NCBI RefSeq assembly: GCF_030068615.1
Contig: NZ_JASJOC010000001.1
Coordinates: 186,001 to 250,000, forward strand
Direction: 5' to 3'
DNA from: Halostagnicola sp. A-GB9-2
GTDB taxonomy: Archaea > Halobacteriota > Halobacteria > Halobacteriales > Natrialbaceae
DNA: 64,000 bases
Shown: positions 48,866-58,674 of the stretch, piece by piece
Layout of the letters: every line of letters begins with the position of its first letter
Numbering within the stretch: position 1 is the stretch's first letter
The notes under the pieces: model-generated
What the model was told of the DNA's origin: nothing
Database searches by the model: none
What the model saw: only the letters and a program-made list of their open reading frames with translations
Program-made: the position numbers and the translations under genes

Positions 48866-50094
48866 ATCTGCCCTCGTACTGCCGCGATGATCGTCGATTC
48901 GTCCGCGTCCGAGTCGTAGGTCAGGTAGCCGCGCCGTCGGCCCACGTCGTAGCCACACCCGATCCCCTCGCCGTCGAGTTCGCGGGTGATCGCCTCGAGC
49001 GTCGACCCGAGGGGACGTGCGTCGGTGGTCGCGACACCGGTTTCACCGTCACCGACCGCCAGAACGAGCGGTTCCGGTGATCTGTAGGCCGCTGTGAGTC
49101 GGGCGACGGTTTCGACCGGGCCGTCGTCGATGTTGACGACGACGATACCGTTGTAGCGTTCGGTCGAGCCGGCCCCAAGCGCCGCGTGTGCGACACGACC
49201 GTGGTCGCGCCACGCGTCGAGTGCCGGATCGCGTGCGTCGTGACCGAGCGCCAGCGCGATTCCGGTTCCCGGCTCAACGCGCGCCGTCGCCTCGAGCACG
49301 TCGGCGTAGCCGCCAATCGTCTCGAAGACGGGTACAGTGTGTCGAGTCGACTCCGGTACGTCTGGCGACGCGTTCGTCGCCGCGTACGGACTCAGAGCTC
49401 GAGCGATCGCGTTCGAAGCGCCGTCGGTAGCTTCCGGCATCCCAACAGCGTCGATCGCGACGAGCGAGCCGATCTTCCGGTGAATCTCTCGAGACGCGCT
49501 CGTTTCGGAGTCGATCCCCTCCGCGGGGACGAGAGCCGAAAACGCCTCTCGAGTCGCCTCGGGATCGCCGGACCACGGAGCCCGCACTCGCGTCGAGTGG
49601 GCGAGCCCGTCGATCGGGTCCGCCGTCGGTACCGCAACGCCGGGTCGTTCTTCGAGTAGATTCCGCTCGAGTGCCGCCTCGAGGAGCCACTCGGTCTCGC
49701 CAGCGCCGGGATCGACGCCGGCCGCGACGACGCCCGCAAGCGCGAGTACTGGATCCGGCGTCGAACCCAGTTCGCGTGCGAGTTCGCAGGCCTCGAGGGT
49801 GGCCGGTCGATCCGAGGGGTCGATCCGGGACACGTCGCCGTCGACCGTGCCGACGACGAGCGTCTGATCGGTCTGGGGTCGGTCCTGACTATCCTCGGTG
49901 AGGGTCGTCCGTTCGCCGACCGTCCTGACGGCACTCACCTGAAACGGGATCTCCCGTTCGGCGAGCGCGTCCGCGATGACCCCGCAAGCGGCGAGCGCGT
50001 CGCCGTCTGGTCGCGTGACCAGACGGACGAAGCTCGCGCTCTCGAGGTCGGCGGTGGCGAGTGTGGCTTCGGTCGAACGACCCTCTGTAGACAT
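48862..50094 (-). CDS. RecJ/DHH-family-like protein without the DHH motif
   Basis: A 410-residue protein of the DHH phosphoesterase plan. Motif I survives as RPDGDALAACG, but where iiDHH should follow the sequence reads VGTVDGDVSRIDPSDRP, so the catalytic DHH triplet is lost. A DHHA1-like C-terminal region (GIGCGYDVGRRRGYLTY, IIAAVRGQI) is present. Such inactive relatives, like Cdc45 in eukaryotes and some archaeal RecJ copies, may be structural, for example with GINS. It is wedged between rps15 and pcc1, overlapping pcc1 by four bases. The exact role is inference. Confidence 0.82.
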   Translation of the reverse strand: MSTEGRSTEATLATADLESASFVRLVTRPDGDALAACGVIADALAEREIPFQVSAVRTVGERTTLTEDSQDRPQTDQTLVVGTVDGDVSRIDPSDRPATLEACELARELGSTPDPVLALAGVVAAGVDPGAGETEWLLEAALERNLLEERPGVAVPTADPIDGLAHSTRVRAPWSGDPEATREAFSALVPAEGIDSETSASREIHRKIGSLVAIDAVGMPEATDGASNAIARALSPYAATNASPDVPESTRHTVPVFETIGGYADVLEATARVEPGTGIALALGHDARDPALDAWRDHGRVAHAALGAGSTERYNGIVVVNIDDGPVETVARLTAAYRSPEPLVLAVGDGETGVATTDARPLGSTLEAITRELDGEGIGCGYDVGRRRGYLTYDSDADESTIIAAVRGQI

Positions 50095-50100
50095 CTGGAA

Positions 50101-50568
50101 TTACTCCTCGAGAAGCGACTTCGCGACGTCGTAGGAGTAGGTGAAGTCGGGTTCGACTTCCTTCCCGCGGTAGTAATCGACGAGTCGGCGCACTTTCGAT
50201 TCGGTGTTTTGCAGTGCGCGCTTGTTCTGGTAGTCCTGTGGGTTCTGCTGGACGTGCTCGCGGAGTCGGATCGCACGTGTCATCAGGCTTCGGAGGTCCT
50301 CGGGAAGCTCCGACCGCGCGTCGTTCTCCTCGAGAATCTCGGTGAGCTTCTTGCCGGTCGCCAGTTTGACGTCCGGAATCGGCGTGCCCGTGACACCCTC
50401 GTCACGTAGCTTGATGCCGATCTGGCTCGGATCGTAGCCCTGCTCTGATAGTTCGACGACCCGCTCTTCGATCTGGTCTGGGTCGACGTCGCTCCACTCC
50501 GGTGGTTCGTCTGCCGCCGGCTTGTCCGATCCGGACGAGCCTCGACGGCGTGTATGCATTCGTGCCAT
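50101..50568 (-). CDS. rps15: 30S ribosomal protein S15
   Basis: A 155-residue protein starting MARMHTRRRGSSGSDKPA, with the archaeal/eukaryotic S13e-like N-terminal extension and the helical S15 core (DQIEERVVELSEQGYDPSQIGIKLRD; LRSLMTRAIRLREHVQQNPQDYQNKRALQ; VRRLVDYYRGKEVEPDFTYSYD). The frame continues upstream to 50646 but the ATG at 50568 is the family start. It is the first gene of the operon, seven bases before the RecJ-like gene. Confidence 0.95.
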   Translation of the reverse strand: MARMHTRRRGSSGSDKPAADEPPEWSDVDPDQIEERVVELSEQGYDPSQIGIKLRDEGVTGTPIPDVKLATGKKLTEILEENDARSELPEDLRSLMTRAIRLREHVQQNPQDYQNKRALQNTESKVRRLVDYYRGKEVEPDFTYSYDVAKSLLEE

Positions 50569-50813
50569 TGATTGAGGATAGGAAACGCACTGACCGCCGC
50601 ATATGTCCGGCTCTCGCCGGGTTGCACTTCCGCAATCTCGAGTCACCCAAAGAGACGGGGTGACAGGGTCAGATTTGCGGCCGTGCGGTTCCCACTGGTA
50701 TCTACTCGGTTAGGGACTAAAGGGTTTCTACCTCCGACCGCGAGTGCTGTATTAGGGGGTTGTTGTCTGATCGAGTGTGGGACAGTACCGCGGTTCCCTC
50801 CAATTCGAGGGGT

Positions 50814-50821
50814 TTATTTAT
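50814..50821 (+). promoter_or_regulatory. TATA box of tRNA-Ala
   Basis: TTTATTTA centred about 34 bases ahead of the mature 5' end at 50851. This is the usual spacing for a haloarchaeal tRNA with a short leader. Confidence 0.6.
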
Positions 50822-50850
50822 GCCCACAAAAAACCCGTAAGTACGAACGA

Positions 50851-50922
50851 GGGCTCGTAGATCAGTGGTAGATCATCCCCCTGGCACGGGGAAGGCCCGG
50901 GGTTCAAATCCCCGCGAGTCCA
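50851..50922 (+). tRNA. tRNA-Ala (GGC)
   Basis: A 72-nt cloverleaf. The acceptor GGGCTCG pairs with CGAGTCC including the G3:U70 pair that marks alanine tRNAs. The anticodon stem TCCCC/GGGGA holds the loop CTGGCAC, giving anticodon GGC. The T-arm is CGGGG-TTCAAAT-CCCCG, with an A discriminator at 50922. The terminal CC-A beyond the discriminator is not encoded. It lies at the edge of a low-GC accessory segment and could be its integration site. Confidence 0.95.
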
Positions 50923-51357
50923 CTCCTTTTCGCCGCGAACAAACTCTCGAGCGGCGCAAATCGTCGGCGAAGGCGGGATTTGAAGCCCTGGAAGTCGCAG
51001 CGCGAACGAAGTGAGCGACCGTCTTCCTTCGGGTTCAAATCCCGGCGTCTTCGCGAGCAACGCAAGCGAAGGCTCGGGAGACGAAGTCTCCTGTTGAGTT
51101 CACTACTTTCTGCGTTATCACCCAATTGGCCAGACAGCGGCGTGTCTTCATGAGTCACCGAGCCGGATTTTGGGTGACTTTCATCGCAAAACCGGCAGTC
51201 GCGTCTGAGTAATTTGAACCCGTCTTCGCTGTACCCCTTGAGCCATACGCCGGTTTCACGCAGAGAGTTGCGCTGGATGATATTATCAATTCTATCCTCT
51301 CCCGGCCTCATCGGATAGACAAGCAAATTGATACCACTGGGATGTAGTGGTAGGAGT
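50923..51357. other. Hairpin-rich spacer behind tRNA-Ala, 435 bases
   Basis: The near part holds an inverted repeat of tRNA T-arm-like sequence (entry below), then a perfect hairpin GGAGAC-GAA-GTCTCC at 51077-51091. The remainder to 51357 is AT-richer and has no convincing gene on either strand. Confidence 0.6.
50963..51056. repeat. Long imperfect inverted repeat with T-arm-like ends
   Basis: The left arm (50965-50988) reads CGGCGAAGGCGGGATTTGAA and on to GCCC; the right arm (51031-51055), read on the minus strand, is CGAAGACGCCGGGATTTGAA with CCC. A 42-base centre contains GCGCGAACGAAGTGAGCG, itself palindromic. Each arm contains a TTCAAATCCCG, the T-loop consensus, but no complete tRNA can be folded from either. 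Confidence 0.65.
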
Positions 51358-51780
51358 ATGCGCACATCTCCCGAGGAAATTACAGTCGGTGGTCATTACG
51401 AAAAAGACGAAATCGAGGAAGCCTTCGATACTGGCTTTGGGTACCAGATTTCTGGCATTAATCCTCGGCGAGACAGTCAAGACAGACGCTATGTGCTAGT
51501 GTTCGCCAACGAGGATGGCCCGTATGATGACTCGGTAACGCAGAGTAAATTCGAGTACATTGGAGAAGGTCTCTCGGGAGACCAAAGTGAATCCTCCCCG
51601 GGGAACTCAGTTTTAATTGATGCTGTGTCTTCAGGAGCCCCGGTCCATTTCTTCTATCAGGATTCCGGTAATGGTGAGTGGGAGTATCAGGGATTAGTTG
51701 ATGTCCTCGACTATCGGTTCGAGGAGCAAGATGGTCGACAGATTTTGGTGTTCGAAATGGAACACCAAGAGCAGAACTGA
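51358..51780 (+). CDS. Stand-alone reader-like domain related to those of HNH nucleases
   Basis: A 140-residue protein: MRTSPEEITVGGHYEKDEIEE then a beta-rich core with GYQISGINPRRDSQDRRYVLVFANEDGPYDD, FEYIGEGLSGDQ, FFYQDSGNGEWEYQGLVDV and an ending FEMEH. I recognise this plan as the N-terminal domain found in front of HNH endonucleases in haloarchaea, similar to SRA/DUF3427-type modules that bind modified DNA. Here the nuclease part is missing: a stop ends the protein right after FEMEHQEQN. Base composition is clearly lower in GC than the neighbours. It may be an orphan reader, an antitoxin-like or a relic; I could not decide. Confidence 0.65.
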   Translation: MRTSPEEITVGGHYEKDEIEEAFDTGFGYQISGINPRRDSQDRRYVLVFANEDGPYDDSVTQSKFEYIGEGLSGDQSESSPGNSVLIDAVSSGAPVHFFYQDSGNGEWEYQGLVDVLDYRFEEQDGRQILVFEMEHQEQN

Positions 51781-52362
51781 GGGCAGTTACTTCCCGTCGA
51801 GGAAATCCCGCTGAAGATTTTGTGAGGTCGCCCATGCTCGGTCGTCAACAGGGGTCCCCGACCGTAGTCCTCATTTTGGCGGAGGTAAACTACCCCTCAC
51901 TACTCGAGCGCTTTTGACTAGCTCTGACGGCGAAACATCTATGTCGATGAATTTCCGAAAATCAGCTCGCTGAATGTGTACGGTCGATGAGCGCATCTCA
52001 GAACACCTTGCGGAAGATTCCTGGGCGACATCGCGTCATCTCCCCTTTGATTGGGGAGCTACTCTTTCCTAGACTCTCGTATTTGATAGTCACAACTTCC
52101 GACCGGTGCCCCTCAACTCAAGAGCCGGTGACGTTCACCCTCGAGTTCAACGACACCAGCCTGGTACAGTTACTCGGAGTCGTTCGGTTCAGTTGAAAAT
52201 TGGTATTCCTTGATGCTCCGAATCACAAGGTGAGAATTTAACTGTGATCTCTAAATCCACAAATGATTTTATGTTGGTTTAGATTTCTGAGGCTATAACC
52301 AATGGTGTTTCCAGAGATAATGATAAAGGGTTTATAATATTGGATTATTGTACTTCCAATAT
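51781..52362. other. Intergenic region, 582 bases, AT-rich
   Basis: From 51781 to 52270 there is no frame with coding character: the best (51987-52196, plus strand) is unremarkable in composition. AT-richness rises towards 52360, with the TATA box of the next gene. Short direct words such as 'ctactcgag' point to debris of a mobile element rather than functional DNA. Confidence 0.5.
52331..52340 (+). promoter_or_regulatory. TATA box of the second polysaccharide deacetylase
   Basis: TTTATAATAT centred about 28 bases ahead of the ATG at 52363. The spacing implies a leaderless message. Confidence 0.6.
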
Positions 52363-53586
52363 ATGGTGACACGAAGGGGGATGCTTGCAACGGGGGTATC
52401 TACAGTAGGGGGAGTCTCGCTACCATTTACGGCATCTGCGAGCAAAACAGAGGGGATGGTCGTATTCACGTACGATGATAGCCCTCTCGAAGACTATACA
52501 GAAACGTTTCCGGTTCATCAGGAATACGATGTTCCGGGCTGCATAGCCGTCTGCCCTGGATTGATGGACTCGTCGACTGCGTATATGGACTCGGACCATG
52601 TTGTGAAAATGAACAATGCTGGCTGGGAGGTTATGTCGCACACACTGAAACACAGAGCACTCGGACATATCCCGCTCACAAAGGACTGCGATCCGGCCAA
52701 TAACCGAATTTATGTTGACACCAACCGGCACGGACGATATGTGGATGACCCTATCGCCCTTGTCACCGACGGCGAGGAGTTGGTTACTGGGGTAGTCAGC
52801 GACAGCGGGACAAACGAAAAAGGCGACTACATCGATCTCAAGTCGAAAGTAGGCAAAATAATCGAATCAGACGATTCATACGTCCGTTACACCGAGGAGT
52901 TTACCCGCAAAATACTCTCGAAAAGTAAATCTCGAATTAACGAATGGGGGATACCAGCGACTGGATTCGTCTATCCCTACGGGCGGTACGATGGGCTTGT
53001 CGAGCGAATCGTTCCCGAATATTACGAGTCGGTCCCAAACCACCGAACTGGGCGAGGTGGACACAATCCGATCAATGAACTAGTGCCGACGGAAATGATT
53101 CGGCAGTACATCGAGACCGACATGGCAACTGATGAAGAAATCCACGAATTCATGGAGACAGTCGCCAGTCGGGACGTTCTCGGAATCACTGGCGGGCACA
53201 GCCAGTATGACACGCTTCCCGCTGACCGAGTCGAGTTCGCCATTCAAAGCGCACTGGATCACAATCTTGAAATCGTCACGGTACAGGAGGCACTTGACAC
53301 GCTGGGGATCGTTGAAAAGCCGGATCTACCAGTGAATGGTGAGGAATCCGATGGTAGCGAATCCCCAAACGAGCATGCTCCAGACTCTCCAGATAATAAT
53401 GGAACGGATACCAAAAACGAGAGTTCAACAGAAGGCGAATCAGATGGTGGCGATGCTACTAAGAGAGATAACGAAAGTTCTGCCGACGCAACACCCGGTT
53501 TGGGCGTCATCGCAGGCACTACAGCCACGGTTGGAGGAGCGCTTGCCGCCAGTCGCTTACTTTCTAGCGATTCTGACGATGCGTGA
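52363..53586 (+). CDS. Polysaccharide deacetylase with PGF-CTERM-like tail
   Basis: A 407-residue exported protein: MVTRRGMLATGVSTVGG Tat signal, then the NodB domain (about 30-320). The metal site looks complete: TYDDSP and SHTLKH (HTxxH), with YPYGRYD and the late TGGHSQYD. It lacks the lipobox of the 6902-8155 protein. A polar, Ser/Asn-rich stalk (about 325-375) leads to PGLGVIAGTTATVGGALAAS at the end, a variant of the PGF-CTERM sorting signal. Composition is AT-richer than the chromosome, so it was probably acquired. The ATG at 52363 is preferred to a TTG at 52348 because of the promoter spacing. Confidence 0.85.
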   Translation: MVTRRGMLATGVSTVGGVSLPFTASASKTEGMVVFTYDDSPLEDYTETFPVHQEYDVPGCIAVCPGLMDSSTAYMDSDHVVKMNNAGWEVMSHTLKHRALGHIPLTKDCDPANNRIYVDTNRHGRYVDDPIALVTDGEELVTGVVSDSGTNEKGDYIDLKSKVGKIIESDDSYVRYTEEFTRKILSKSKSRINEWGIPATGFVYPYGRYDGLVERIVPEYYESVPNHRTGRGGHNPINELVPTEMIRQYIETDMATDEEIHEFMETVASRDVLGITGGHSQYDTLPADRVEFAIQSALDHNLEIVTVQEALDTLGIVEKPDLPVNGEESDGSESPNEHAPDSPDNNGTDTKNESSTEGESDGGDATKRDNESSADATPGLGVIAGTTATVGGALAASRLLSSDSDDA

Positions 53587-53588
53587 GG

Positions 53589-53594
53589 TTTTTT
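53589..53594 (+). terminator. T-run behind the second deacetylase
   Basis: Six T residues start three bases after the stop at 53586, as expected for an archaeal U-rich terminator. Confidence 0.45.
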
Positions 53595-53766
53595 ACAATA
53601 GATGAAATAAATACTATTCTCTGAGTGAGCCAATTTTCAGACAAAATTTGTACAAAGGCACCATTGAGAATACCCTTCTGTCGTTAAAATCTTCGATTCG
53701 TCCTCTTCAGCACTTAGTGATGCTGTACTTGTCTGCATCGGGCTGTGCCCGTCTCATGCTTCATAA

Positions 53767-53834
53767 GGTCGGTTGTAAGTCATTTCCAGTCAGTCGTCAC
53801 CCCGATCTGGCGAATGACCGGTAAACAACTACCC
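53767..53834 (-). repeat. Palindromic repeat, copy 1
   Basis: Reads GGTCGGTTGTAAGTCATTTCC, with CAGTCAGTCGTCA near its centre, and ends TGACCGGTAAACAACTACCC. The copy at 58678-58759 read on its minus strand is GGTCGGTTGTCAGTCATTTCC...TGACCGGTAAACAGTTCC, so the two are related along most of their length but in opposite orientation. Here the palindrome has accumulated mismatches. Confidence 0.75.
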
Positions 53835-53914
53835 GGTCATCTGGATCCAAACGCCGACTGAACAGACCTCGAGCCACAGTCTACCCAACCAAAAAACATC
53901 CTTGAGGACCCCAA

Positions 53915-54253
53915 CTACTCGAGCAAATCTCCTCGAACCCGACACCCGCAGGGATACGCATTGTGGAAATCTGGAATGAGTTGGACGACCGCAGTAACCG
54001 GAAGTCCACACTCGGGGCATTCGGGGTGAGACGACAGTTTCTCGTCGGTCACCCGAACGCCGAGATTCGTTACGACGAGCGAAACCCCGTGAACCTCGAG
54101 ATGGACCTCAACCTTCTCGCCACCGGAATCGACCAACCGCGCGAGCGCCTCCGGGTCGAACTCGCTGGCGAGCTGGTAGGCGTCTCGAGGGACGCCCTGT
54201 TTCTCGAGAGTCCGAACAATGTCTACGACCAGGTCGGTCGTCGGCGGGGTCAT
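53915..54253 (-). CDS. HalOD1-like domain with C-terminal zinc knuckle
   Basis: A 112-residue protein. Residues 8-75 have the look of the haloarchaeal HalOD1 output domain (DIVRTLEKQGVPRDAYQLASEFDPEALARLVDSG, HLEVHGVSLVVTNLGVRV). A cysteine cluster follows (CPECGLPVTAVVQL...YPCGCRV), giving a possible CxxC plus CxC zinc site. HalOD1 stands at the ends of sensor proteins, and here it occurs without a sensor. The role is unknown. Confidence 0.72.
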   Translation of the reverse strand: MTPPTTDLVVDIVRTLEKQGVPRDAYQLASEFDPEALARLVDSGGEKVEVHLEVHGVSLVVTNLGVRVTDEKLSSHPECPECGLPVTAVVQLIPDFHNAYPCGCRVRGDLLE

Positions 54254-54608
54254 CGCTTAGACCCACCTCCAGGCGCGTGAGCGGCGGCTGGCGGTAATTG
54301 ACTTCGATTCGTCTGTCGGACGGGATGTTTAAGCCCGCGGAGAAGCAATCGTATCATGGCAACTGACCCTTGACGGGTTCGGAAGCCACGTCTCGGGTGT
54401 CATCACCACCCGGGGCATTTCAATACGAACGCCCCCTTCCGTGGAGTTTCGGCTTCCATTTGACAACACGTCCTGTATTGTCATATAACTACTGTTTTCG
54501 GAGAGGAATAATGTGTTCTCGTCTTTATTGTCGCATTCATCCGACAGACTGTCACAGTCAGCGAAAGACAGACAGTCACGGTCACCAAAAGAAGGGGGCC
54601 CGGAGCGG
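54254..54608. other. Intergenic region with a broken gene start, 355 bases
   Basis: A TATA-like GTTTAAGCC at about 54326-54335 precedes an ATG at 54357 by 27 bases, but the frame (MATDP) stops after five codons. The rest to 54608 has AT-rich stretches and repeated short words (ACAGTCAC) with no gene. It looks like a gene whose body was lost. Confidence 0.5.
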
Positions 54609-54995
54609 CTACTGCCACAGCGCGGTGTCCGTGTAGTTCACAAACCGTGTGATTCGACCGTCCTCGAGTTCGCAGACGTGTGCGAACGGGCTCTCGATCC
54701 GCTCGCCCATCTCCGGTGTCGCGTAGAACGTCCCGAGCGCAACGACCATCTCATCGCCGTCGATGACCCGCTCGCATTCGACGCGAAACTCCTCGTAGTC
54801 GTCCATAACTGGCTCGAAGACGTTCTCGAGCACTGCCTCGGGGCTCTCGTGGGTCCCGCCGTACGTGGACCCCTCCGGTTCGGTCCACTCGATGTCCTCG
54901 GCCATGTTAGCCAAGACGGCGTCGATGTCACCCTCGTTAAAATCGTCGTACATCCCCCGGACTATCTCGGTGTTACTCTGCGTGATTACTGCCAC
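54609..54995 (-). CDS. SnoaL-like (NTF2-fold) protein
   Basis: A 128-residue protein with a GTG start at 54995 (MAVITQSNTEIVRGMYDDFNEGDID). The NTF2-fold pattern follows: AVLANMAEDIEWTEPEGS, HESPEAVLENVFEPVMDDYEEFRVECERVIDGDEMVVALG, and the last strand FAHVCELEDGRITRFVNYTD. Such cone-shaped domains bind or isomerise small hydrophobic compounds; the ligand is unknown. Composition is that of the core chromosome, unlike the deacetylase upstream. Confidence 0.85.
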   Translation of the reverse strand: MAVITQSNTEIVRGMYDDFNEGDIDAVLANMAEDIEWTEPEGSTYGGTHESPEAVLENVFEPVMDDYEEFRVECERVIDGDEMVVALGTFYATPEMGERIESPFAHVCELEDGRITRFVNYTDTALWQ

Positions 54996-55259
54996 TGTTC
55001 TACACCACCTATAATTAGGATCCCAGAGACAATAGATCTGGCACCTGCCTACCCAGGGAGCCAGAAGCGAGATCACGACCCTAGGCCGATTTTGACGCTG
55101 TACTCACCCATTCAACAGTAGCCAGTTGGCTATGCTGAGTATCCCCCGCCCGTTCTGCTCGCTCGTGAGTTGACGAATATCCTCGATATGCGTCCAGTCT
55201 TCTGCAATTCGAGACACTTCATCGGAGAAGATATACCCCCTCTTGTCTACTATCTGATT

Positions 55260-55652
55260 ATGAATGGAAACGTATCATCGAAGGATGTGTGGTTCCTACT
55301 CGGATTTGGATTCGCTATCTGGCTGATTGCAACCGTGGCGTTTCGACTCGTTGGACAGGTTCTCATCAGTCCAGATACGCCCTACATAATTGCAGGTCTG
55401 TTCGTGGTTACTATTCCTGCGATGGTTCTATTGACCATCGGGGCCTTCCGCTGGAGAGCCGTCGATTCAACTCACCGTCCACTGGCCGCAATACTGCTGG
55501 TAACACCGGGAATGGTTCTTGATGCGATCGTATTACCCTTCTTCGGAACCGTCTTCCCGAATATGGTTGTCGAATCAGCACAGTATTTCGGCGGCTTCCT
55601 TCTGCTGGCATACGTCCTCGCTCTGCTGGTCGGACTGTTCTCCGGCCGGTAA
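55260..55652 (+). CDS. Small membrane protein (DUF5367-like)
   Basis: A 130-residue protein with four transmembrane segments (about 8-28, 38-58, 70-92, 103-125), starting MNGNVSSKDVWFLLGFGFAIW. It looks like the DUF5367 family, whose members are small four-helix membrane proteins of unknown function in bacteria and haloarchaea. The frame is open 30 codons upstream, but the ATG at 55260 begins at the first helix. AT-rich sequence ('tatctgatta') lies directly before it. Confidence 0.72.
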   Translation: MNGNVSSKDVWFLLGFGFAIWLIATVAFRLVGQVLISPDTPYIIAGLFVVTIPAMVLLTIGAFRWRAVDSTHRPLAAILLVTPGMVLDAIVLPFFGTVFPNMVVESAQYFGGFLLLAYVLALLVGLFSGR

Positions 55653-56085
55653 TCGACCGACGAACGCCGGGTTGTCATACGGTCACATAGGGAGAGGTTG
55701 TTGGTGAAAGTACAAGCGAGATGGAGACAAAGACAATGCGCTTAGTTTTCTGCGTTGAGTTTGATTTCGATACCTAAATGGGTCAATCGACTTCTCTGGG
55801 CGAAGGCCAGGTCCGAGAGGCGATACGCTGGACAGTTTCAGCCACGCCCTCAGAAAACACCACGATCGGAGAGCGAGTCGGCTCCGTCACAGTCGCCGAT
55901 ATCTCCTAATCTAACGCCGTATGGCGATTCACCAAAGCCAGCAAAGGCTATCTCACGACTGTCTCTCGAGCACGTCTACCCCGCGAACGAATCCCTGACC
56001 CGACCAATCTATATCTCCGTTCGAGACTAACTGGCTCTCAATGCGAATGTTGGCCGCCCACGCCGACGCAGGGGAACGCTAAGAA
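55653..56085. other. Intergenic region with gene debris, 433 bases
   Basis: A 43-codon frame (55778-55909, starting MGQSTSLGEGQVREAI) and, in another frame, a stretch reading RFTKASKGYLTTVSRARLP (about 55925-55980) look like pieces of one small gene broken by a frameshift. Neither half is convincing alone. No RNA gene is seen. Confidence 0.4.
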
Positions 56086-58674
56086 ATGACGGGAACCGTG
56101 GCACAGCGATACGCTCGAGTCATCACCGAGCACAGCCGCTTGGTCGTCGCCCTCCTGTTAATCGCAACCACCCTCGTCGCGGCCGGAGCGGCCGTTGGCG
56201 AAACGGAGGATGCGGGAATCGGCGAGTTCGAGACCGATTCCGAAGAAATCGAAGCACTCGAGGAGATCGAAGCAACCTACGGCACTGACGACGGCGTGGT
56301 CACCCAAATCGTGATACGCGAGGGTGACGGCGACGTGCTCACTCGAGACTCGTTGCTCGATGGCCTCGAGTTACAACAGGAGATCCGAAACGACCCTGAC
56401 ATCGACGCCACGCTCGAGGACGACCCGTTCCTCGCGCTCGAGAATCTCGTGGCCACGGGTGCCGTGTTCGAAGACCGCGCCGCTGAGGCGAACGGCCAGC
56501 CCGACACGTCCGAACCCACGCTCAAGGAGCAGATCGAGGCACTCGAGTCGCGATCGGACGAGGAGGTCGAAGAACTGCTCGCGGACGTGCTCGATCCCGA
56601 TGCGGAACAGGGCGGCGAGGACGCCTACGAGTTCCTGCCGACGGCGTACGAACCGGGCGAGACCGAGGCGGAGTCTCGAATCGTGTTCGCCTTCCAGATC
56701 GACGAAACTGGTCCTGACGAGGAACCCCAGGCCACCTACGACGCGCAGGTGACGATCGACTCGCTGGTCGACGACCGGTTCGACGACGCGTTCGTCTTCG
56801 GGCAGGGCGTTACCGACGAAGCGTCCTCGAGCGCCGTCGGCGATAGCTTCGCGATCATTACCCCCTTCGCGCTCGTCCTCGTCCTGTTCGTGCTGGGGGT
56901 CACCTACCGCGACGTCGTCGACGTTGGCATCGGCCTCGTGGGGATTGCCATGGTGCTCGCCTGGCTCGCGGGGATCATGGGCTGGCTCGAGATCCCGATG
57001 AGCCAGCTGTTGATCGCGGTGCCGTTTCTGTTGATCGGCCTGGCGATCGACTACTCGCTCCACGTCGTGATGCGATACCGGGAGGCCCGCGCTGGGTTGT
57101 TGGAACCGAAATCGAAACCGGAACCGGAACCGAACCCGAAAGGAGACGGTGACCGGATCGGCCCGAAAGTCGGGATGGGAATCGGACTCGCGGGCGTCTC
57201 GCTCGCGCTCGCGGCCGCGACGTTTTCGACGGGCGTCGGCTTTCTCTCGAACGTCGTCAGCCCGCTTCCGGCGATTCGGGACTTCGCGATCCTGAGCGCC
57301 GGCGGAATCTTCGCGACCTTCGTTGTGTTCGCGATGTTCGTTCCGGCGTTGAAAGTCGAAGTCGACGGCATCCTCGAGAACCGATTCGATCGCGACCGCG
57401 CCAGGGAGCCGTTCGGGATGGGCGGCGGGCTCGTTACCCGCGGGCTCGGCGGTGCCGTCGCGGTCGCCCGTCGAGCGCCGTTGGCCGTCATCGCCGTCGC
57501 GTTCTTGCTCGCGGTCGGCGGTGCCTACGGCGCGACCGGCATCGACACGGAGTTCAACGAGGCGGATTTCCTGCCCCAGGACGCGCCGGAGTGGACCGAC
57601 TCCTTACCGGGGCCGTTTGAACCGGACACGTACACGATTGCCGACGACGTCGAATACCTCAGTGACAACTTCCGAGAGCGCGGCGAGGATACACAGACCC
57701 AGATACTGATACGCGGCGATGTGACCGATCCGGCGACGCTTCCGTCCATCGACGACGCATCCGCTGAGGCGAACACGAGCGGGACCGTTCTCGAGAATCC
57801 GGACGGGGACGCCGCGATCGACGGGCCCCAGACAGCCATCCGCGAGATCGCGGCAGAAAACGAAACCGTCGCGGCGGCGCTCGAGGAACGCGATACGTCC
57901 GGAAACGACCTTCCCAACGAGGACGTAGACGAGTTCTACGACCTCCTCTTCGATGCCGACGAGGATCGAGCGAGCGAGGTACTCTACCGGACGGACGACG
58001 GCGAGTACGAAACGAGCCGGTTGATCATCGACGTGCGCGGTGACGCGGCCGCACAGGATGTTGCGGACGACACGAACGACGTCGCGACACTGATCGAGAC
58101 CGGCGGGCCGGTGACTGCGACGGCGGCCGGCGGTCCCGTAACGACGGCGGTCGTCCAGGACGCGTTGCTCGAGACGCTCGTCCAGGCGTTCGCGGTCACG
58201 CTCGTCGTGATTCTTACGTTCCTGACGGGGCTCTACTGGATTCGACACCGCTCGCTCACATTAGGGGCCGTCACGCTCGCGCCGGTCGTCGCCGCGCTGG
58301 CCTGGTTGCTCGGAACGATGGCGGTACTCGAGGTGCCGTTCAACAGCGAAACGGCGGTAATCACGAGTCTCGCGATCGGCCTCGGCGTCGACTACAGCAT
58401 TCACGTCGGCGAACGGTTCGTCGCCGAACGCGACGCACGAGACTCCCTCGACGACGCGCTCGTCGCGACGATCACCGGAACCGGCGGGGCCCTCCTCGGG
58501 AGCGCGGCGACGACGGCCGCCGGATTCGGCGTCCTCGCGCTCGCGCTCGCGCCGCCACTCCAGCGATTCGGGCTGGTCACCGGCCTGAGTATCGTCTTCG
58601 CGTTCCTCGCGTGTCTCACGGTGCTTCCGTGCCTGCTTGTCGTCCGCGAGCGCGTTCTCAATCGGGTCGGGTGA
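56086..58674 (+). CDS. RND/MMPL superfamily membrane protein
   Basis: An 862-residue transporter. After the first helix (LVVALLLIATTLVAAGAAVG) a large acidic extracellular domain (about 40-255) precedes five helices; a second copy of helix, domain (about 485-690) and helices follows. The helix 4 motif with Asp in GLAIDYSLHVVMRYRE and its partner GLGVDYSIHVGERFV is the RND/MMPL proton-relay signature. A basic Pro/Glu repeat (KSKPEPEPNPKGDGD) sits in a cytoplasmic loop. Such proteins export lipids or drugs in proton exchange. The substrate is unknown; SecDF-like variants are less likely. Confidence 0.92.
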   Translation: MTGTVAQRYARVITEHSRLVVALLLIATTLVAAGAAVGETEDAGIGEFETDSEEIEALEEIEATYGTDDGVVTQIVIREGDGDVLTRDSLLDGLELQQEIRNDPDIDATLEDDPFLALENLVATGAVFEDRAAEANGQPDTSEPTLKEQIEALESRSDEEVEELLADVLDPDAEQGGEDAYEFLPTAYEPGETEAESRIVFAFQIDETGPDEEPQATYDAQVTIDSLVDDRFDDAFVFGQGVTDEASSSAVGDSFAIITPFALVLVLFVLGVTYRDVVDVGIGLVGIAMVLAWLAGIMGWLEIPMSQLLIAVPFLLIGLAIDYSLHVVMRYREARAGLLEPKSKPEPEPNPKGDGDRIGPKVGMGIGLAGVSLALAAATFSTGVGFLSNVVSPLPAIRDFAILSAGGIFATFVVFAMFVPALKVEVDGILENRFDRDRAREPFGMGGGLVTRGLGGAVAVARRAPLAVIAVAFLLAVGGAYGATGIDTEFNEADFLPQDAPEWTDSLPGPFEPDTYTIADDVEYLSDNFRERGEDTQTQILIRGDVTDPATLPSIDDASAEANTSGTVLENPDGDAAIDGPQTAIREIAAENETVAAALEERDTSGNDLPNEDVDEFYDLLFDADEDRASEVLYRTDDGEYETSRLIIDVRGDAAAQDVADDTNDVATLIETGGPVTATAAGGPVTTAVVQDALLETLVQAFAVTLVVILTFLTGLYWIRHRSLTLGAVTLAPVVAALAWLLGTMAVLEVPFNSETAVITSLAIGLGVDYSIHVGERFVAERDARDSLDDALVATITGTGGALLGSAATTAAGFGVLALALAPPLQRFGLVTGLSIVFAFLACLTVLPCLLVVRERVLNRVG

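Follow-up and report, generated by a model that had tools for sequence, protein, structure and literature searches.

A 140-residue protein encoded in a 64,000-nucleotide stretch of the Halostagnicola sp. A-GB9-2 genome (hereafter the window) consists of a predicted SRA domain that ends without a nuclease. The reading that we favor, at a probability of about one half, is that this protein is a retained SRA reader that once traveled as part of an SRA–HNH cargo gene; its HNH domain would have been lost, the accompanying integrase would have decayed, and the remaining domain would act by occupying a modified base, as a shield or as a sensor. The observations behind this reading, drawn from sequence, are the predicted fold, kinship with nuclease fusions, absence of HNH, an element in Halobonum tyrrellensis (L007) with the parental gene arrangement, an ancestor shared with the solo locus L054 that already stood alone, and purifying selection. 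The features of the locus, in window coordinates, are as follows.

51358..51780, plus strand: stand-alone SRA-fold protein of 140 residues (open reading frame, alignment, model, kinship, and selection counts)
50851..50923, plus strand: tRNA-Ala(GGC) (ARAGORN and Rfam)
51031..51047, plus strand: 17-nt copy of the tRNA 3′ core with a different tail (read by eye; too diverged for a pattern search)
51095..51357, no strand assigned: conserved, apparently noncoding 5′ flank of the solo gene (DNA matches to L054, L007, and L002)
51787..51816, minus strand: C-terminal integrase remnant, LQRDFLDGK-stop, tail to tail with the solo gene (translation; likeness judged by eye)
51819..51872, minus strand: internal integrase remnant of 18 residues (tblastn and DNA match to L007)

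The reading frame at 51358–51780 is intact, from an ATG start to a TGA stop, and the GC content drops from ~0.64 to 0.50 around it. Because relatives are encoded at 20 loci in a first scan, and the domain is matched at E ≤ 0.001 in 93 of 391 sampled Halobacteria genomes, a chance ORF is ruled out and the gene is, on these matches, a real one. Pfam and NCBIfam hold no model that matches the protein; its PHROGs match (3.7e-35) is to a family of unknown function, and in PADLOC residues 46–120 match a type IV model weakly (0.00019). The tRNA-Ala(GGC) gene, the sole Rfam match above cutoff over 50800–52400, lies 434 bp upstream on the same strand, and the next genes downstream encode a polysaccharide deacetylase and a protein with a weak, below-cutoff HalOD1 match. 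The 5′ flank is 82–84% identical to that of L054 over 253–256 bp, 74% identical to that of the HNH-linked L007 over 140 bp, and 71% identical to that of L002 over 109 bp, and it could contain a regulatory element or integrase arm sites. Between the window and L054 this flank is more alike than the synonymous sites of the gene, which are ~51% identical. An antisense ORF at 50904–51365 was rejected as a gene, having no Pfam match and being interrupted in L054. A scan for bacterial-type promoters and terminators, a method not designed for archaea, scored near chance level.

The earlier note, which had described the protein as a lone DNA-reader-like domain, pointed to SRA, DUF3427, and ScoMcrA sulfur-binding domains (SBD) as possible structural relatives. 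An AlphaFold2 model built from 32 sequences (pLDDT 86.1, pTM 0.82) predicts an SRA fold across the whole domain. SRA domains rank at the top of a Foldseek search of the PDB (SUVH5 SRA, E 1.5e-7; ScoMcrA, E 4.8e-7), and VIA, a second aligner that re-ranks Foldseek's own list, returned SUVH5 SRA at Z 14.0 over 129 residues, TagI at Z 12.1, and ScoMcrA at Z 12.0. By sequence, the nearest solved structure is ScoMcrA residues 293–365 (E 0.0014 for 5zmm and 0.0007 for 5zmn); the best ScoMcrA alignments cover residues 293–365 and 255–395, which is the SRA region, the SBD being residues 91–260. No SBD is among the sequence and structure matches listed for the solo protein, and no Pfam match to DUF3427 is listed for it or its 32 aligned relatives. 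PF02182 (SAD_SRA) matches 6 of the 32 aligned relatives at E ≤ 1, the best at 1.9e-8, and leaves the window protein itself unmatched. Within the domain, Y56, D58, and Y67 are invariant in 32/32 sequences. Their spacing resembles that of Y416, D418, and Y428, which hold the flipped base in SUVH5 (PMC4740795), and of Y55, D58, and Y67, the two tyrosines and aspartate that form the flipped-base pocket of TagI (PMC6212794), the equivalence being one of motif and not of superposition. We infer that these residues form a candidate base-flipping pocket. In ScoMcrA, according to its authors, the residues with which UHRF1 and SUVH5 recognize 5mC are not conserved (PMC6224610).

Most relatives of the solo protein are, judging from their domain order, HNH nuclease fusions. 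Domain order was read at 43 hand-picked loci, each genome locus being taken once. Eight encode the SRA domain alone: the window, L002 (Natronorubrum thiooxidans), L003 (Haloarcula amylovorans), L006 (a MAG), L054, L055, L056, and L019 (a MAG). Among the other 35 are the arrangements SRA-HNH, HTH-SRA-HNH, SRA-wH-HNH, and SRA-EVE-like-HNH; in two of the 35, L016 (which has masked bases) and L040, HNH was not detected. Alignments to the HNH-linked loci bear out the earlier proposal that the 140 residues correspond to the N-terminal domain of HNH endonucleases from haloarchaea. Six of the solos are intact; in the other two, an in-frame TAG (L055) or a frameshift (L019) breaks the gene. Leaving the frameshifted L019 uncounted, the stop falls at residue 140 in five of seven and at residue 138 in two. 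Queries with HNH had no match at E ≤ 0.05 anywhere in the window or in the stretches around six other solos, and none at E ≤ 0.01 across 6 kb at the eighth (L019/L089). Segments of HNH, winged helix, EVE-like domain, and N-terminal HTH, used as queries, revealed no partner domain near the solos (3.4 kb for the window, L001). The possibility that HNH had been lost from view in the window through a frameshift, which the earlier note had raised, was rejected: the queries were negative in all frames at E ≤ 0.05, and no HNH domain was recovered. The protein therefore stands alone, as first supposed, and since it stops after the SRA domain it falls outside the definition of an SRA–HNH endonuclease.

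The search for further copies that the earlier note had suggested thus yielded eight solo loci in haloarchaea; the source genome itself (38 contigs, 99.97% complete) has one copy of the domain at E ≤ 1, with no second copy, HNH-linked or solo. SRA is the sole sensor detected beside HNH in nine loci (L007, L009, L010, L011, L042, L043, L044, L046, and L048), of which L010 is frameshifted, and broken HNH-linked copies occur at L005, L010, L020, L036, L059, and L086. The genome of Haloarcula amylovorans LR21 combines the solo L003 with L014, an HTH-SRA-wH-HNH enzyme, a natural setting for competition between the two. Among mobile elements, a scan of viral contigs gave two loci with the domain; the matches in a phage collection were HHPV3 and HHPV4, at 76%; and a plasmid collection gave three records, in all of which the match falls on an annotated HNH endonuclease. 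When neighboring ORFs of at least 80 residues were compared at E ≤ 1e-8, up to ~6 kb per side, no recurrent neighbor emerged at seven solo loci besides an S15 ribosomal-protein/tRNA context common to the window and L002.

The arrangement from which the solo gene would have come is seen in Halobonum tyrrellensis, where an element of ~2.3 kb consists of a tRNA-Ala 3′ end, an SRA-HNH gene, a convergent integrase, and a second tRNA 3′ end.

L007 2303-2325: tRNA-Ala 3′ end, first copy
L007 2583-3509: SRA-HNH gene
L007 4649-4671: tRNA 3′ end, second copy

Both the integrase and the direct repeats of the tRNA 3′ end are present in L007; the tyrosine integrase is intact, its stop codon overlaps that of the SRA-HNH gene, and these are the only two recognized genes between the att repeats. 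By its gene content and order, this element shows what appears to be the parent arrangement of the solo gene. It would also be a very small vehicle by which restriction genes spread among haloarchaea. In window 50001–57000 the integrase was found only as scraps, together with a single full copy of att. What reads as the C-terminal end of the integrase lies 6 bp beyond the solo stop, is followed by the internal scrap, and is alike, as judged by eye, to the LQREFFDSR-stop of the intact L007 integrase; the 18-residue scrap matches residues 217–234 of that integrase at 78% (tblastn, E 5e-6 to 3e-5). The same integrase end follows the solo at L054 (37 bp at 92% to the window), so that in both the solo gene lies tail to tail with an integrase end. 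At L054 an intact integrase sits across an att copy from the solo: in G224, a segment of ~12.3 kb that includes an integrase is enclosed by two copies of the tRNA 3′ end and is followed by L054. At the six other solos (L002, L003, L006, L019, L055, and L056), no integrase was found at E ≤ 0.01 in an interval reaching from ~1 kb upstream of the gene start to 3.4 kb downstream of it.

The suspicion that the gene lies at a tRNA integration site gains support from this tRNA-Ala(GGC) and the integrase scraps and from congeners. Homology between the window and four congeners ends at the tRNA-Ala 3′ end, three of the four have integrases related to the HHPV4 integrase at this tRNA, and 23-nt repeats of the tRNA 3′ end flank the elements in L007, L072, and L087; judging from these comparisons, the 3′ end of tRNA-Ala(GGC) is an attachment site for integrases in related genomes. 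The 17-nt copy at 51031..51047 is possibly a degenerate attachment site, and window 50900–51043 matches the G087 congener (L072 4998-5153) from the second att copy onward. The congeners with HHPV4-like integrases at the same tRNA are L070, L071, and L072; L070 and L071 also have homologs of HHPV4 proteins 3 and 4, and no SRA gene lies in the 9.5–10.4 kb covered at the occupied site in any of the three. A same-strand tRNA gene lies at most 450 bp upstream in four of the eight solos, a tRNA 3′ fragment in a fifth, and neither in three, and tRNA-Ala lies 132–351 bp upstream in 8 of the 35 nonsolo loci (L007, L008, L009, L010, L011, L015, L028, and L086). At L010:5796-8382 and L015:5702-8597, an SRA-HNH gene is placed between two complete tRNA-Ala(GGC) genes ~2.5–2.8 kb apart, which suggests that the whole tRNA was duplicated with the insert.

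The window gene and L054, which belongs to another genus, share 84% identity over the 253 bp before the start and 92% over 37 bp beyond the stop, and 100 shuffles stayed far below both matches. As the flanks are shared on both sides, their common ancestor was already solo. Nei–Gojobori counts for this pair give dN 0.105 and dS 0.81 (dN/dS ~0.13; Fisher p 5.5e-15), and those for the window and L002 give dN 0.070 and dS 1.73 (Fisher p 1.7e-32); the ratios of seven HNH-linked pairs are similar, and synonymous sites are saturated in the more distant pairs. The solo protein has, by these counts, been under strong purifying selection since the window/L054 split, and such selection on a nuclease-free SRA domain suggests an independent function for the reading part. 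A tree, in which L019 was scored as fused, requires two state changes for the solos; a single solo clade is neither supported nor rejected (AU p 0.517; present in 40% of bootstrap trees).

The most credible of the rival explanations, though an unlikely one, is a relic, as the earlier note had entertained: a functionless, disappearing N-terminal leftover of an SRA–HNH nuclease after a deletion. The stop or frameshift in two of eight solo loci fits this explanation, as do the many broken HNH-linked copies, which indicate fast turnover, and the low GC content and integrase scraps around the gene. However, six of the eight copies are intact, their ends differing by no more than two residues, the solo state is older than the window/L054 split, and nonsynonymous change since then has been far below synonymous change. 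With a solo ancestor, a low dN/dS, and a co-traveling integrase reduced to scraps, a kept gene ranks above a relic. It would be a different matter if the protein were an accessory factor of the element that aids or controls integration or excision at tRNA-Ala, for which the nuclease part would be dispensable. SRA-HNH and integrase are the only recognized genes within L007, with overlapping stops, the 5′ flank near att is conserved between solo and HNH-linked loci, and solo and integrase are tail to tail in the window and L054. Yet six of eight solos have no integrase match, the window has scraps only, and the L054 integrase lies beyond an att copy, so the solo gene outlives the integrase; moreover, the three congener integrases at the same site have no SRA gene in the 9.5–10.4 kb covered there. 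We regard such a role as improbable.

Membership of SRA in the PUA superfamily (PMC10101028, PMC11037411) raises the further prospect that the protein now binds RNA or a protein partner instead of DNA, which would agree with the report that the SRA domain of HHPV4I makes no contribution to DNA binding and that its removal raised binding (PMC10101028). We think this quite improbable, in that the candidate base-flipping residues are invariant and SRA is the sole detected sensor beside HNH in nine loci. Least probable of all is a split restriction system in which the solo guides an HNH or other nuclease encoded elsewhere: SRA is common to the fusion architectures seen, in a set of loci collected by that very domain, but no HNH was found near any solo, and among seven solo loci the only neighboring ORFs in common are those of the ribosomal-protein/tRNA context of the window and L002.

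The retained reader that we favor could have arisen and could work as follows. The ancestor would have been a modification-dependent SRA–HNH nuclease, cargo of a very small integrative element at the tRNA-Ala 3′ end; the nuclease part would then have been lost and the integrase would have decayed, with the reader module retained by selection. The present protein would bind DNA, flip a modified base into the conserved pocket for which Y56, D58, and Y67 are the candidates, and, having no nuclease, work by occupancy of the mark. It would most likely shield marked DNA of the host or element against SRA–HNH enzymes that read the same mark, or serve as a noncleaving sensor; our best guess is thus a noncleaving reader or shield of modified DNA whose target sites are common to SRA–HNH enzymes. 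If the solo does shield marked DNA, the reader itself would have been turned into a protein of immunity to modification-dependent restriction. A bolder version, which we consider doubtful, is that the haloarchaeal SRA domain reads a mark outside those assayed and that the solo is a dedicated immunity protein against the SRA–HNH enzymes of pleolipoviruses and mini-elements at the same tRNA, domesticated by loss of the nuclease. The 140-residue solo offers a handle for finding the SRA ligand.

Methyltransferase content was compared for two candidate marks, neither of which gained support. Across 24 genomes (with L012 and the genome of the eighth solo, L019, left out), the C5 methyltransferase family PF00145 was found in three, namely in one of seven solo genomes (G345) and 2 of the 17 others; solo genomes do not in general carry 5mC methyltransferases, and, PF00145 being rare, a cognate 5mC mark is not apparent in most. 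PF01555 was missing from 3 of the 24 genomes (G354, G194, and G317). The enzymes of these three have SRA as their only detected modification sensor, that of G317 also having an N-terminal HTH, a pattern that was promising but post hoc. As for m4C at CTAG as ligand, the larger set shows no link: the methyltransferase was absent in 14 of 93 SRA genomes and 45 of 298 non-SRA genomes, counts that were read by eye with both draws taken as the same 391 genomes. The query, the G000 PF01555 protein, which we take to be probably a widespread orphan CTAG methyltransferase, was absent in 59 of the 391 genomes, and many genomes with short SRA ORFs (~265–350 residues, taken by length) have a match to it. 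The first PF01555 pattern is confounded by kinship, because Halorubrum often lacks the CTAG methyltransferase (PMC6471742).

Among known systems, the closest characterized relative of the solo protein is, on sequence identity, HHPV4I (HhiV4I), the N-terminal SRA domain of which is 76% identical to solo residues 1–138. It too is the product of a mobile-element gene, that of the archaeal pleolipovirus Haloarcula hispanica pleomorphic virus 4, with a tyrosine integrase, but it possesses winged-helix and HNH domains where the solo has SRA only. The haloarchaeal cytoplasm is far saltier than 100 mM. Assayed for cleavage and mobility shift at ~100 mM salt, HHPV4I cuts near Gm6ATC, a dependence that resides in the winged helix; without its SRA domain, m6A-dependent cleavage remains and DNA binding is tighter (PMC10101028). 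DNA with 5mC, 5hmC, or g5hmC was not efficiently cut, and binding to it was described as undetectable (data not shown in the source; PMC10101028), the 5mC/5hmC negative being repeated in PMC11037411. Of the earlier proposal that the domain reads modified DNA, then, the reader-type fold stands, whereas reading itself is not established, the HHPV4I SRA domain being reported as dispensable and none of the tested cytosine modifications as efficiently cut (PMC10101028). The authors call that domain likely inactive and suspect a hidden function because HHPV3 keeps it (PMC10101028). A solo lineage under selection would mean that the SRA domain works without a nuclease, which bears on the role of the HHPV4I domain left open in these two papers.

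ScoMcrA (Sco4631), the solved structure whose SRA region comes closest to the solo in sequence, differs in being a multidomain SBD-SRA-HNH protein of 561 residues, described as using the SBD for phosphorothioate and as having activity stimulated by 5mC and 5hmC (PMC7461809, PMC6224610). The TagI/ScoA3IV family of SRA–HNH enzymes has the SRA fold predicted for the solo (Z 12.1 for TagI) and a pocket of two tyrosines and an aspartate (PMC6212794), for which the solo has candidate counterparts by motif; TagI, however, dimerizes via HNH, which the solo lacks. Stand-alone EVE proteins are likewise single-domain members of the PUA-like superfamily that occur in archaea, although they form another family and those described adjoin restriction operons (PMC7641849), whereas the solo SRA genes have no recurrent neighbor. 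The literature searched, mainly open-access, contained no report of solo SRA proteins of haloarchaea. A nuclease-less SRA protein is nevertheless already in print: HHPV3 protein 15, a natural SRA protein without HNH (PMC10101028), the model of which is the best viral structural match to the solo. It differs in having 258 residues, comprising SRA, a partial winged helix, and a tail matching HHPV4 protein 24. Comparison of HHPV4 (L076) with HHPV3 (L077) reveals an extra module in HHPV4, from the HNH end through the integrase, that is missing in HHPV3, and a module with HNH and integrase has been described in HHPV4 at the border between SRA/winged helix and tail (PMC5867852).
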